Part shown: positions 12,036 through 24,643 of the stretch, piece by piece
How the letters are laid out: every line of letters starts with the position of its first letter
Position numbering within the stretch: position 1 is the first letter of the stretch
Source: a virus
IMG/VR virus record: IMGVR_UViG_3300013286_000023
Coordinates: 1 to 41,695 of that record
Length of the DNA stretch: 41,695 bases
Reading direction: 5' to 3' (one strand)
Translations under genes and position numbers: made by a program
Notes under the pieces: generated by a model
Told to the model about the DNA's origin: nothing
The model's input: the letters and a program-made list of their open reading frames with translations, nothing else
Databases searched by the model: none

Positions 12036-12956
12036 TTAGATAGTGTGGGCAATAGATACTTTTGTACCAGTTGCAGTTGTAACATTCCATCCTGTTTGGC
12101 CACCATCAGTAACTAACCAAGCATTTGAACCACTTTGAGTTAACCGCACTAGTCTGGCTTTTTTAGCAGTTAATTTAGTTACATAGTAAGTGTTACCGTT
12201 GGCATCAGTTGCAATGATATTCATCTCGCCCGTCAGCAAAGAACCATTTGCTTTTGCTACTAATTTGCAGATTCCTTTGCCGTCAGTATTTTGAATCAAA
12301 TAACGATGACTACCTTCTTGTTTTAGAATGTCTCCATTAGTACGTACAGATCCAAGAGGAAGTTTTGAGGCAAAAGATATTGTGTTCTGACGAGTACCAG
12401 TTAGAACAACCGCTGAGCTAGCAAACCCTGCACCTGTATCACGGAATAAAATACTGGCGTTGACTGTGCCTGCATTTGGCCACGTTAGATTGACTACATT
12501 ACCTACTACACTGGTAACAAAAGTAGTGCTTGCACTTATGTTAACACCAAATACCTGCATGCCAATTTGAATGCCAGTGGTAGTTGCTGGATAAACTTGT
12601 GCAACACCACTAGTACCAGTAGTCGCACTAGTCACTCCAGTTGCCGTAGTAACAGTTATTGATGGACCAGATGAATATCCAGAACCAGCATTTGTAATTG
12701 TGATTGATGAAATTTTACCAGCGCCGGCTGTTCCTGGTGCACCGATTACTGGTGCGCCCGTTGCTTGAACACCGCCAGTAATGTTTGGAGCACCAAACGC
12801 TATTGTTGTACCTAATGAATAAGCAGCAGTACCTGTGTTTGAAATTGTAACTGATGCTACACCTTCAGCACCAACACCAGTTTTGCCACCAGTGGATAAA
12901 TTCCTATACGGACTAATTGTACTGCCGAAAAATCTCTTTTTAATTGGACGTCCCAT
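12036..12956 (-). CDS. Head decoration or head-fibre candidate, conserved next to gp23
   Basis: The frame is open to 12983, but ATG at 12956 (MGRPIKKRFFG) is the better start because AGGAGA lies seven bases upstream; this gives 306 residues. The basic N-terminus is followed by a Gly/Thr/Ser-rich beta region. It includes VASVTISNTG and ISSITITNAGSGYSSGP, the 'GSGY-x-x-x-P' type repeat frequent in phage decoration and fibre proteins. The C-terminal 100 residues (from about TNGDILKQEGSHRY) form a different, non-repetitive domain. A gene starting with this basic MGRPIKKRFF-like motif directly after gp23 is familiar from aquatic T4-like phages. It sits between two terminators with its own late-promoter motif, so it is an independent late unit. 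The decoration role is inferred. Confidence 0.65.
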   Translation of the reverse strand: MGRPIKKRFFGSTISPYRNLSTGGKTGVGAEGVASVTISNTGTAAYSLGTTIAFGAPNITGGVQATGAPVIGAPGTAGAGKISSITITNAGSGYSSGPSITVTTATGVTSATTGTSGVAQVYPATTTGIQIGMQVFGVNISASTTFVTSVVGNVVNLTWPNAGTVNASILFRDTGAGFASSAVVLTGTRQNTISFASKLPLGSVRTNGDILKQEGSHRYLIQNTDGKGICKLVAKANGSLLTGEMNIIATDANGNTYYVTKLTAKKARLVRLTQSGSNAWLVTDGGQTGWNVTTATGTKVSIAHTI

Positions 12957-13047
12957 TTTGTTTCTCCTAAAATAAGTAAACACGGCGTTCTAGGCCGTAC
13001 GCAGTTGGATTTCTGCATAAAACTTACCCGATGTAAGCTGTACAGAG

Positions 13048-22522: not shown

Positions 22523-22746
22523 GGCTTTTGACCTTAGATATCCCTGAGATAGAATCAGAGATAGCTAAGATGGAAAATGAGTCAAAAGCCTTAAAGAAAG
22601 AAATTTTTAAACTGTCTTGGTATATGAGAGGAGGTCTCAGTTTTACTGAAGCCTACATGCTTGATCAAGAAGATCGAGAAATTATTACTAAAATTATTGA
22701 AGAAAATTTAGAGTTGACTAAAGCCAGTCAAATGCCGTTTTTTTAG
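22519..22746 (+). CDS. Small hub-assembly partner of the gp26-like protein
   Basis: A protein of 75 residues starting at the ATG that overlaps the preceding stop (ATGA). It has a helical N-terminus followed by KLSWYMRGGLSFTEAYMLDQ and then DREIITKIIEENLELTKASQ, ending MPFF. This WYMRGG-x-x-x-x-EAY, DRE-x-I-x-x-II-x-EN pattern is common in small genes directly after gp26 in T4-like phages. Position suggests a role like T4 gp51 (hub assembly), although T4 gp51 is much longer; alternatively it is a tail-assembly chaperone. The C-terminal end overlaps the convergent gene at 22743 by four bases. Confidence 0.72.
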   Translation: MRLLTLDIPEIESEIAKMENESKALKKEIFKLSWYMRGGLSFTEAYMLDQEDREIITKIIEENLELTKASQMPFF

Positions 22747-23516
22747 ATATTCATATCTAAAAAACTGCTGCGTACTTTGCCTTCTTCCATATTACGAATT
22801 GGCAATCCATTTATATTTCTTGCAGGCGGCGGGGTAGGAACTGTTTGTCTAACTTGTGGGGGCGGTGTTGTAAAAGATGATTGGGGTGCCGCAGGTTGAG
22901 AAACTGGTCTTGCAACATTTCTAACACTAACTGGTGCATTGGCCATTGTATTAGGACCAGCGACAGTGTTGGCCATATTGCTAAATGCTCCTGAACCAGC
23001 GGTATTTGGTGCATCCGTTGTGCTACTAGCAGGTGCGCTTGATGGAGAATTTATAGCTTGAGCAGCTTGTGCTTGTCTAGATTGTCTAACTTGACTAGGT
23101 GTTGGTTGTAGTGTACTAGCTGGTGTTGGTGGTGTTGTACTAGCTGAAGTCGATTGTGTATTACTAGGCGGTGCAACATATGGTTGCCCTTGTCCGCCAG
23201 CAGCGCGACTCGCACGTTGCGGTTGTCTAGATCTTGGAACATTTTGGATAGGAGTTGCAGTAGTTTGGGCCGAAGTTCCTCCATCAAGCGCATCTGCTTG
23301 TTGTCGTAATGTTAGTGCTTGTTGTGCCTGTTGCTTAGAGTATCCGCCACCTGCACCAGAAACTGCGCCACGTCCACCTTGATAGCCCTGCTTAAATCTA
23401 TCCCACGCACCATGAACTCCACCAGCAACCGCGCCAACAGCTCCCACACCTGAGCCAATAGCTGATGCTATTCCTTCTTCAGTTTGGGTTTCAGTTAATA
23501 TATCATTGATACGCAT
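22743..23516 (-). CDS. Low-complexity Ala/Pro/Gln/Ser-rich protein, probably virion
   Basis: A protein of 257 residues, with ATG at 23516 and AGGA upstream. The N-terminus MRINDILTETQTEEG is followed by a Gly/Ala/Val-rich hydrophobic helix (about 17-35). Next is HGAWDRFKQGYQGGRGAVSG, then about 180 residues of disordered Ala, Pro, Gln, Ser and Thr. The last residues (LPIRNMEEGKVRSSFLDM) are more conserved-looking. A perfect late-promoter motif lies just upstream, so it is late and plausibly virion-associated. Proteins with a similar start (MRIN-x-IL-x-E) occur in uncultured aquatic phages. I cannot name a function; an internal head or tail protein is one possibility. Confidence 0.6.
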   Translation of the reverse strand: MRINDILTETQTEEGIASAIGSGVGAVGAVAGGVHGAWDRFKQGYQGGRGAVSGAGGGYSKQQAQQALTLRQQADALDGGTSAQTTATPIQNVPRSRQPQRASRAAGGQGQPYVAPPSNTQSTSASTTPPTPASTLQPTPSQVRQSRQAQAAQAINSPSSAPASSTTDAPNTAGSGAFSNMANTVAGPNTMANAPVSVRNVARPVSQPAAPQSSFTTPPPQVRQTVPTPPPARNINGLPIRNMEEGKVRSSFLDMNI

Positions 23517-23541
23517 TGCACAATCCTATAAGTTATAAATT

Positions 23542-23549
23542 TATTTATA
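23542..23549 (-). promoter_or_regulatory. Perfect T4 late-promoter motif (TATAAATA)
   Basis: TATAAATA on the minus strand lies 26 bases before the ATG at 23516. It sits directly after the last hairpin of the structured region, within an AT-rich near-palindrome. Confidence 0.6.
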
Positions 23550-23551
23550 AG

Positions 23552-23571
23552 AAATGAGCTAAAGCTCATTT
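23552..23571. terminator. Nine-base-pair hairpin at the end of the structured region
   Basis: AAATGAGCT and AGCTCATTT pair with a two-base loop (or eight pairs with a four-base loop). On the minus strand it is followed by CTTATAA, a weak tail, so it could end the upstream minus-strand transcript just before the late promoter. Confidence 0.45.
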
Positions 23572-23990
23572 GCTTCGGCGCTATCGCTTGAAGCATTTAC
23601 TTCGTCGAAGACGAAATTAATATTATCCAGATCGTTCAGTCACACTTTGCCCTGACGGGCAAAGAAACATTATCCGAGTCGAACACATGTCACTTAGCGT
23701 TAGAGCATTACAGAGGCGGTCATCCGGTACCTCGAGCTCAGTCTTTATATGACGGCGGTCTACTAACATACGCTAACATGCTAGCAAACGTGGGGCAACT
23801 ACCCCTCCTTTTGCCTAAAACTGTTTAAACAACCAAACCGCGGCAGATTTGCGATCCTCGTCCTGTAAAGGATAGTGGTTGAGTACTCTTATCGGCAAGA
23901 GATTTCCCTCCCTGTGATCCTAGATCCAGGTGTACGGGCACCCGAAATTAGCAGGTGCGAGCCTTGAGACCGATTAAATGAGCCTAAATT
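23552..23990 (-). ncRNA. Unclassified structured non-coding RNA candidate
   Basis: The 503-base gap 23517-24019 has no convincing gene. From about 23640 to 23980 it is close to 48% G+C, against about a third in flanking genes. Clear hairpins are 23552-23571, 23571-23595 (TGCTTC with GAAGCA, plus GCG with CGC inside), 23601-23615 (TTCGTC with GACGAA) and 23645-23664 (CTTTGCCC with GGGCAAAG). Others are 23772-23785, 23792-23805 (GGGG with CCCC), 23886-23901 and 23929-23942; GCACC at 23938-23942 can also pair with 23954-23958. The strand is assumed minus because both flanking genes and the terminal hairpin fit. I recognise no tRNA, tmRNA, RNase P, SRP or group I intron core. An origin or packaging element is an alternative. 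Confidence 0.5.
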
Positions 23991-24019
23991 TTGTTTTTTA
24001 TGTGGGACTTGGTGTCTGT

Positions 24020-24445
24020 TTATGATTTTAATATATGCGAGCCATGCACTCTTACGGATATTTGTCCATTATAGAACTGGTCCGACTCTAACACTTTATG
24101 TTCAAACTGTAATTTTGCTTCAATGTAACTACACTCTGCTTTACTCTTGCAGTAATGTAATATTTCTCTTTTAAAATTTTCTTTGCCTAAATTTTCTATA
24201 TCTTTGTTTAATTCTATCGACGAGCCGTAATACTCTTCCCAGTCACTAGGAATTTTACTTCTAATCTTTTTCTTTTTCTTTGTGCCATTCTTTAATTGTA
24301 CATTCTTATAAGTAGTTTTTGCAAACTTTGCAAGTTTCTTACCTATATATTTTTTATTATTTGTTAAATTTGTTATACAATATACATAACCAACACAATC
24401 TTCCGGAAGTTCGATAACTTCTTGTCCTTGATAGTGCCAAGTCAT
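24020..24445 (-). CDS. GIY-YIG family nuclease, SegE-like
   Basis: A protein of 141 residues. GYVYCITNLTNNKKYIG (19-35) holds the GIY-YIG pair (Tyr20-Val-Tyr22 and Tyr33-Ile-Gly35). A Lys-rich insertion follows, then DWEEYYGSS, Arg93 in FKREIL and Glu109 in CSYIEAK, which match the catalytic Arg and the metal-binding Glu of the family. The small size and the WEEYYGSS block resemble T4 SegE-type free-standing homing nucleases. Proteins like this are widespread in T4-like phages and may be domesticated. The start is ATG at 24445, three bases after the preceding stop. It is followed by the structured non-coding region. Cleavage specificity cannot be told from the sequence. Confidence 0.75.
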   Translation of the reverse strand: MTWHYQGQEVIELPEDCVGYVYCITNLTNNKKYIGKKLAKFAKTTYKNVQLKNGTKKKKKIRSKIPSDWEEYYGSSIELNKDIENLGKENFKREILHYCKSKAECSYIEAKLQFEHKVLESDQFYNGQISVRVHGSHILKS

Positions 24446-24448
24446 AGA

Positions 24449-24643
24449 TTATTTTGCTACTTTTTCTTCCTTGCGGGCATTCTTTTCAGCAGTAATTTCA
24501 TTCCGGCGGACTTTAACAGCCTTGGCCAATTCACCTAATGCCTTACGTGCGCGAGTACCAGCAGCAGCATTACCTGCTGTAAATTTTGCATCTTCTTTTA
24601 AGAAATCTGCTACCTGTGCTTGGATTTGTTCGTTTGTTGTCAT
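24449..24643 (-). CDS. Small histone-Hc1-like basic protein
   Basis: A protein of 64 residues with ATG at 24643 and AAAAGGA upstream. The segment FTAGNAAAGTRARKALGELA (21-40), followed by a Lys/Arg-rich tail, matches the GN-x-AAGTRARKAL motif of chlamydial-type histone Hc1-like proteins. The same motif is common in small proteins of large DNA viruses and phages. It is probably a DNA-binding or nucleoid-compacting protein, but a helical protein-protein role is possible. It sits in the gp46/gp47 transcription direction, between a basic 113-residue protein and the GIY-YIG nuclease. Confidence 0.65.
   Translation of the reverse strand: MTTNEQIQAQVADFLKEDAKFTAGNAAAGTRARKALGELAKAVKVRRNEITAEKNARKEEKVAK

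Follow-up and report, generated by a model that had tools for sequence, protein, structure and literature searches.

Polynucleobacter-1 (RF01718) and cow-rumen-2 (RF02947), the described RNA classes closest to the one presented here, have so far been catalogue entries without a known function; cow-rumen-2 reportedly originates from a survey of 2017. The Polynucleobacter-1 motif was named once, in a table, in a paper from 2010 (PMC2864571). GOLLD and ROOL are large, ornate RNAs with pseudoknots, carried by phages or prophages, that form homo-oligomers (PMC12286853).

The window examined in this study is a stretch of 41,695 nucleotides of viral DNA (IMG/VR record IMGVR_UViG_3300013286_000023, positions 1 to 41,695). 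Covariation among homologues establishes that one of its intergenic gaps encodes a putative phage noncoding RNA, about 435 nt long, conserved and structured over its full length. The same alignments establish Polynucleobacter-1 as a fragment of this longer predicted phage RNA, while cow-rumen-2 resembles another part of it; together with the strict same-letter covariation that links two sequence boxes, this gives a concrete handle, in that the box predicts what a partner would have to recognise. The setting is freshwater T4-like phages, with possible relatives in rumen jumbo phages. The 5' domain was already known, but the literature searched gives no account of the complete RNA, of its pseudoknots or of a twin-box module shared across classes; an earlier description of parts is possible.

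Extent and structure of the RNA

The intergenic gap at 23517-24019 (503 nt) had been flagged in a first-pass annotation of the window as a G+C-rich structured region. Its G+C content (about 0.38-0.48 in 200-nt windows) is indeed raised, but it is unremarkable beside the adjoining gene at 22743-23516, where G+C is likewise 0.47-0.51, so that the enrichment is not specific to the gap. The structure itself is real: the minus strand folds with a z-score of -3.16 against dinucleotide shuffles, none of 100 shuffles being equally good, and 33-55 homologues show covariation beyond chance. The plus strand is less clear than the minus strand (z -1.94 against dinucleotide shuffles).

Homologues were sought by scanning IMG/VR with a 16-base motif, which returned at least 119 stretches; by alignment score, at least 85 matches, including the copy in the window, are true homologues. 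Thirty-three diverse homologues from freshwater T4-like phage contigs in IMG/VR align across the whole gap. The conserved RNA lies on the minus strand at 23553-23988 (5' end at 23988, ends approximate) and extends from about the stop codon of a GIY-YIG gene to a closing hairpin. Helices were suggested by a covariation scan of 55 sequences and counted on the 33-sequence alignment, the kind of comparison that the first-pass annotation had proposed. In the 14 resulting helices 97.6% of cells are paired, a percentage that, like those below, leans upward because structure and counts were drawn from the same sequences; repeated joint changes on a tree support the helices. Changes on both sides were seen in 40 of 71 pairs, and double-change cells numbered 295 compared to 81 in shuffles, with all slid controls far lower. 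A conserved protein reading frame, named beforehand as grounds for rejecting an RNA, was looked for across the homologues and not seen; the longest open stretches average 38-59 codons.

All 4227 Rfam families were searched, again as proposed, with E values up to 10, and two matched the gap. Polynucleobacter-1 matches strongly at 23827-23963 on the minus strand, with 116.3 bits over model positions 1-141 of 141, compared to a curated cut-off of 37 bits, so that membership holds over the full model. Cow-rumen-2 matches weakly at 23685-23789 (17.6 bits, E 1.1, below the curated cut-off of 66). The models for GOLLD, ROOL, HEARO, the group I intron and tmRNA had no match in the gap at E up to 10, and ARAGORN found neither tRNA nor tmRNA there. 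The earlier statement that the region belongs to no recognised RNA class therefore fails: Polynucleobacter-1 accounts for one third of it with a match over the full model. The suggestion of something undescribed must be given up for this 5' third, but it holds for the remaining two thirds and above all for the twin-box module. The comparison with large, complex phage RNAs was well founded as to general kind.

Three of the 14 helices are pseudoknots. Within the Polynucleobacter-1 domain, helix P2 (GCACC/GGUGC, 23938-23958 on the minus strand) has double changes in three of five pairs; the segment GCACC at 23938-23942 (plus-strand letters), previously noted as a pairing segment, forms one of its arms. 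Helix P5 and its inner helix (23830-23881, minus) are 99.5-100% paired, with double changes in seven pairs. Pseudoknot Pk1 (23892-23973, minus) joins 23970-23973 to 23892-23895 in the loop of a CUCU/AGAG hairpin; it is paired in 98.5% of cells, occurs as A-U, G-C and U-A at the pair 23973/23892, lies partly beyond the Rfam model and, when read by eye, is apparently kept with different letters in two divergent paralogues. Domain B (23694-23789, minus) consists of a long hairpin at 23758-23789 and stems at 23736-23740/23702-23706 and 23729-23732/23711-23716, all with covariation. Its pseudoknots are Pk2, between the hairpin loop 23771-23776 and 23694-23699 (99.5% paired, double changes in four of six pairs), and Pk3, between 23749-23753 and 23719-23723 (93.3% paired, double changes in three of five pairs), both on the minus strand. 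At the 3' end the RNA is closed by a terminator-like hairpin of the form GARC..GYTC (23553-23571, minus), with a T tail too weak for the terminator scan; beyond it, at 23542-23549 on the minus strand, the next gene has its own T4-type late promoter box, TATAAATA. Both elements had been pointed out earlier, and they recur in 76 and 58 of 77 homologues, respectively; TATAAATA would be expected by chance about 0.006 times per such stretch.

Compared to the Polynucleobacter-1 Rfam model, of which its 5' third is a full-length member, the RNA is about three times as long and adds the upstream arm of Pk1, domain B, Pk2, Pk3 and the twin-box module. The 3' half (domain B) appears distantly similar to cow-rumen-2: the two align over their full length in both directions, albeit weakly (17.6 bits; E 0.04 with our model R1). 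Across 425 kb, every match of model R1 (best E 0.04) fell at a cow-rumen-2 position, in loci that had been preselected by a motif inside the model. The rumen RNAs also have a downstream hairpin with like boxes, but Pk2 is not seen in them. GOLLD and ROOL resemble the present RNA as large, ornate, pseudoknotted phage RNAs; the present RNA differs in its smaller size, in its twin boxes and in having no sequence or model match to either.

Twin boxes at the 3' end

Near the 3' end of the RNA, two copies of a 7-nt box stand 47-60 nt apart with a hairpin in between (23645-23664, minus; strong covariation at 23661/23648, canonical fraction 0.96, four pair types). In the window, copy R1 reads A-CTC-GGATAAT (23669-23679, minus) and copy R2 reads A-TCT-GGATAAT (23622-23632, minus). 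In all 55 aligned sequences the letters of the two copies are the same at the three variable positions (columns 23675/23628, 23674/23627 and 23671/23624). Among 96 unique RNAs the pattern is XYA-CTC-box for R1 and XYA-TCT-box for R2, and the copies agree in the 7-nt box in 95 RNAs, in X in 76 and in Y in 93; R2 was taken in this set as the best match among anchored candidates, which introduces a mild bias, and the unselected 55-sequence alignment agrees. On a tree of 95 RNAs built without the boxes, copy 1 changed 31 times and copy 2 32 times, with 32 joint changes and one discordant case.

It is unusual for same-letter covariation to be as strict as base pairing with no complement in cis, and the pattern can be tested directly. 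A search for a cis complement of the box found none, a phage's own box scoring no better than the boxes of other phages, and seven large contigs held no extra copies of the box motif beyond one chance match in coding DNA. Predicted accessibility of the boxes (0.44 and 0.55) is not clearly higher than the average of 0.42. The translational bypassing element of T4 gene 60 likewise has matching words on either side of a hairpin, roughly 50 nt from each other. The boxes described here differ from that element in having no conserved frame and in matching over at least 7 nt rather than one codon; they do not lie inside a translated ORF, and a bypassing element was rejected.

The module in other RNAs

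In other phages the same site beside the GIY-YIG gene holds a large RNA of a second class, with an unrelated 5' part and no Rfam match above cut-off (L287:1915-2420, L316, L318, L326, L356-L447); RNAs of this class often lie just 3' of that gene, and a motif scan returned 92 stretches. Two more RNAs at this site differ again in their 5' parts: the one at L344:1920-2300 carries GGTGAAT twice, and the one at L291:1914-2270 carries AGATGAT twice plus domain B. At least six of seven box letters are identical in 44 of the 46 second-class RNAs with anchored boxes, which include ACATGAA, ACAGGAA and ACATAAA, and between the related RNAs L401 and L402 both boxes were replaced at once. Model R2, whose training set was confined to the Polynucleobacter type and L291, placed 30 of its 31 matches in second-class RNAs on the twin-box module, each of them weak (E 0.02-4); it did not find the module in the rumen loci. 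The like boxes of the rumen loci are less strict: their mean shared run is 6.75, and the corresponding values are 4.9 for shuffles and 5.3 for comparisons between RNAs.

Among seven large freshwater contigs, six carry the RNA once and one carries it twice, a single copy being usual. Compared to this, cow-rumen-2 is present in two to four copies in five of eight rumen or gut contigs and in one copy in the other three; these contigs (L260-L275, 136-424 kb) thus have one to four copies each. Rumen and gut paralogues within one contig can carry different boxes, including in one jumbo phage. The sequence TATATTTG, like a Bacteroidota promoter, is often found upstream of the cow-rumen-2 copies in L260-L275. 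Two places in one phage contig of 145,656 bases, L257 and L258, hold divergent RNA paralogues with the same rare box, AGATGAG; their 3' halves are similar overall, and the shared box may therefore reflect recent ancestry. The L258 copy has a promoter-like TTGACT-17-TATACT upstream, a type of site whose number is not above that in shuffles.

A GTDB scan of host genomes with an 18-base motif gave seven chance matches and showed no bacterial carrier. Among named phages, blastn found no match for five RNA queries and only a 41-nt match for a sixth. The 41-nt match of L430:184-224 (85%) falls in intergenic DNA without annotation in phages of Roseobacter and Caulobacter; in CcrBL9 it sits among tRNA genes, and ARAGORN predicts no tRNA in L430.

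Possible functions of the twin boxes

The existence of a structured RNA with twin-box covariation is far more certain than any mechanism. Our best reading, to which we assign a probability of roughly 45%, is that of a trans-acting phage noncoding RNA whose two identical boxes would dock one external partner. A partner in trans that is recognised twice is the simplest reading because the box has no complement in cis, the motif has no extra copies and the joint change is strict. The recurrence of the module in an RNA class with a different 5' part and the rare box shared by L257 and L258 also speak for it, whereas the unremarkable predicted accessibility of the boxes and the negative promoter search in the window speak against it. 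During infection such an RNA would presumably serve in trans as a scaffold or decoy whose folded body holds out both boxes to a partner; that partner could be a protein that binds a specific sequence, or a nucleic acid recognised through base pairing. Any change in the specificity of the partner would then require both boxes to change, and the differing 5' domains could be interchangeable bodies for one docking device. More speculatively, and with odds well short of even, the twin-box module may be an unrecognised RNA device that several large phage RNAs share despite their unrelated 5' domains. Two identical, fast-diversifying 7-nt words would then read one trans partner, and the box would set the specificity of each RNA as a bivalent guide or decoy. 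The different boxes of paralogues within one genome imply either a partner for each RNA or an internal contact, and in the case of the jumbo phage they weaken the idea of a single shared host partner. Because they keep other explanations alive, confidence in the mechanism is limited.

There are several such explanations. An unlikely candidate is a single sequence-specific endoribonuclease (or, at the DNA level, a nuclease or recombinase) that processes or cuts at both boxes and so frees or removes the segment lying between. Both sites would have to match the same enzyme, and the identity of the boxes, the hairpin between them and the short spacing (47-60 nt) all fit; however, no enzyme was identified, no inverted arms of a recombinase site were seen, and the identity of the X and Y flanks (76 and 93 of 96) next to a constant CTC/TCT difference is left unexplained. 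Non-Watson-Crick contacts of the boxes with each other or with a shared internal element, like letters fitting like, would account for strict same-letter covariation within one molecule and for the different boxes of paralogues in one genome, but words as dissimilar as GGATAAT, ACATGAA and GGTTAATGTAA are hard to reconcile with a fixed geometric contact, and we consider this unlikely. It is improbable that the RNA works mainly through folding and self-assembly, as the homo-oligomers GOLLD and ROOL do (PMC12286853), with the boxes as a side feature: its size, pseudoknots and phage and freshwater or rumen setting are in keeping with this, yet Rfam gives no match to either class and identical boxes are not predicted.

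The remaining explanations are weaker. Although a gene of the same orientation follows the RNA in every case, a role as a leader controlling that gene in cis is very improbable, as the closing hairpin (76 of 77) and, in 58 of 77 homologues, a late promoter stand between them and the downstream gene differs greatly from locus to locus. Gene conversion or slippage between short direct repeats could in principle maintain the box identity without function, the repeats being close together; that the CTC/TCT and G/A differences at the box borders persist when the inner 7 nt are replaced, that the intervening hairpin and the spacing vary and that only one discordant case occurs make this highly improbable. 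Least credible of all is one mobile or RNA-guided unit of RNA and GIY-YIG protein: the two are adjacent in most loci (an ORF ends at the RNA 5' end in 78), but about 17 of 80 GIY-YIG loci lack the RNA, an inserted gene separates the pair in four loci, and the fixed gene order implies vertical inheritance rather than a mobile unit. An RNA-guided nuclease unit of the HEARO or omega-RNA type was rejected on synteny, the association of RNA and nuclease not being constant.

Genomic context

The RNA follows the late sigma factor gp55, gp47, gp46, small genes, an H1-like protein and a SegE-like GIY-YIG gene, and is itself followed by a variable gene, a baseplate hub protein, a large protein and the portal gp20 (gp46 and gp47 were named from position and similarity). 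This single gene order across loci looks like vertical inheritance within one T4-like clade. The GIY-YIG gene, outside the RNA at 24020-24445 on the minus strand, matches PF19835 (E 1.4e-33). The first-pass annotation had placed the RNA next to this homing-type nuclease, and the link between them proves weak: in 80 loci fetched by the GIY-YIG protein alone, domain B was found in 48, while the other 32 include loci cut short, loci with insertions, loci with a different RNA and about 17 in which a protein gene takes the place of the RNA. In Melnitz, an isolated phage, a related GIY-YIG gene is present but is followed by no comparable gap. In L109, L060, L117 and L047 the SegE-like gene and the RNA are separated by an insertion placed exactly between them, a GIY-YIG homing-endonuclease-like gene of 230-240 aa.

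No clear promoter was seen in the window, and the RNA may therefore be processed from the GIY-YIG transcript. Indirect signs of an independent noncoding RNA gene are the closing hairpin with the late promoter of the next gene and the promoter-like site upstream of one paralogue. The downstream gene (22743-23516, minus, outside the RNA) has no Pfam or PHROG match; it is highly variable across loci except for a short N-terminal leader (MRINDILTE, MKISELLVE and similar), which we take to resemble the T4 capsid-targeting sequence. Adjoining the GIY-YIG gene on its other side, a small histone H1-like protein of this T4-like phage is encoded at 24449-24643 on the minus strand (PF07432, E 3.8e-13). 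The window also contains a second Rfam match, to the freshwater-2 class (RF02980, listed as cis-regulatory), at 12954-13038 on the minus strand (76 bits), and this RNA is present in L012 as well.
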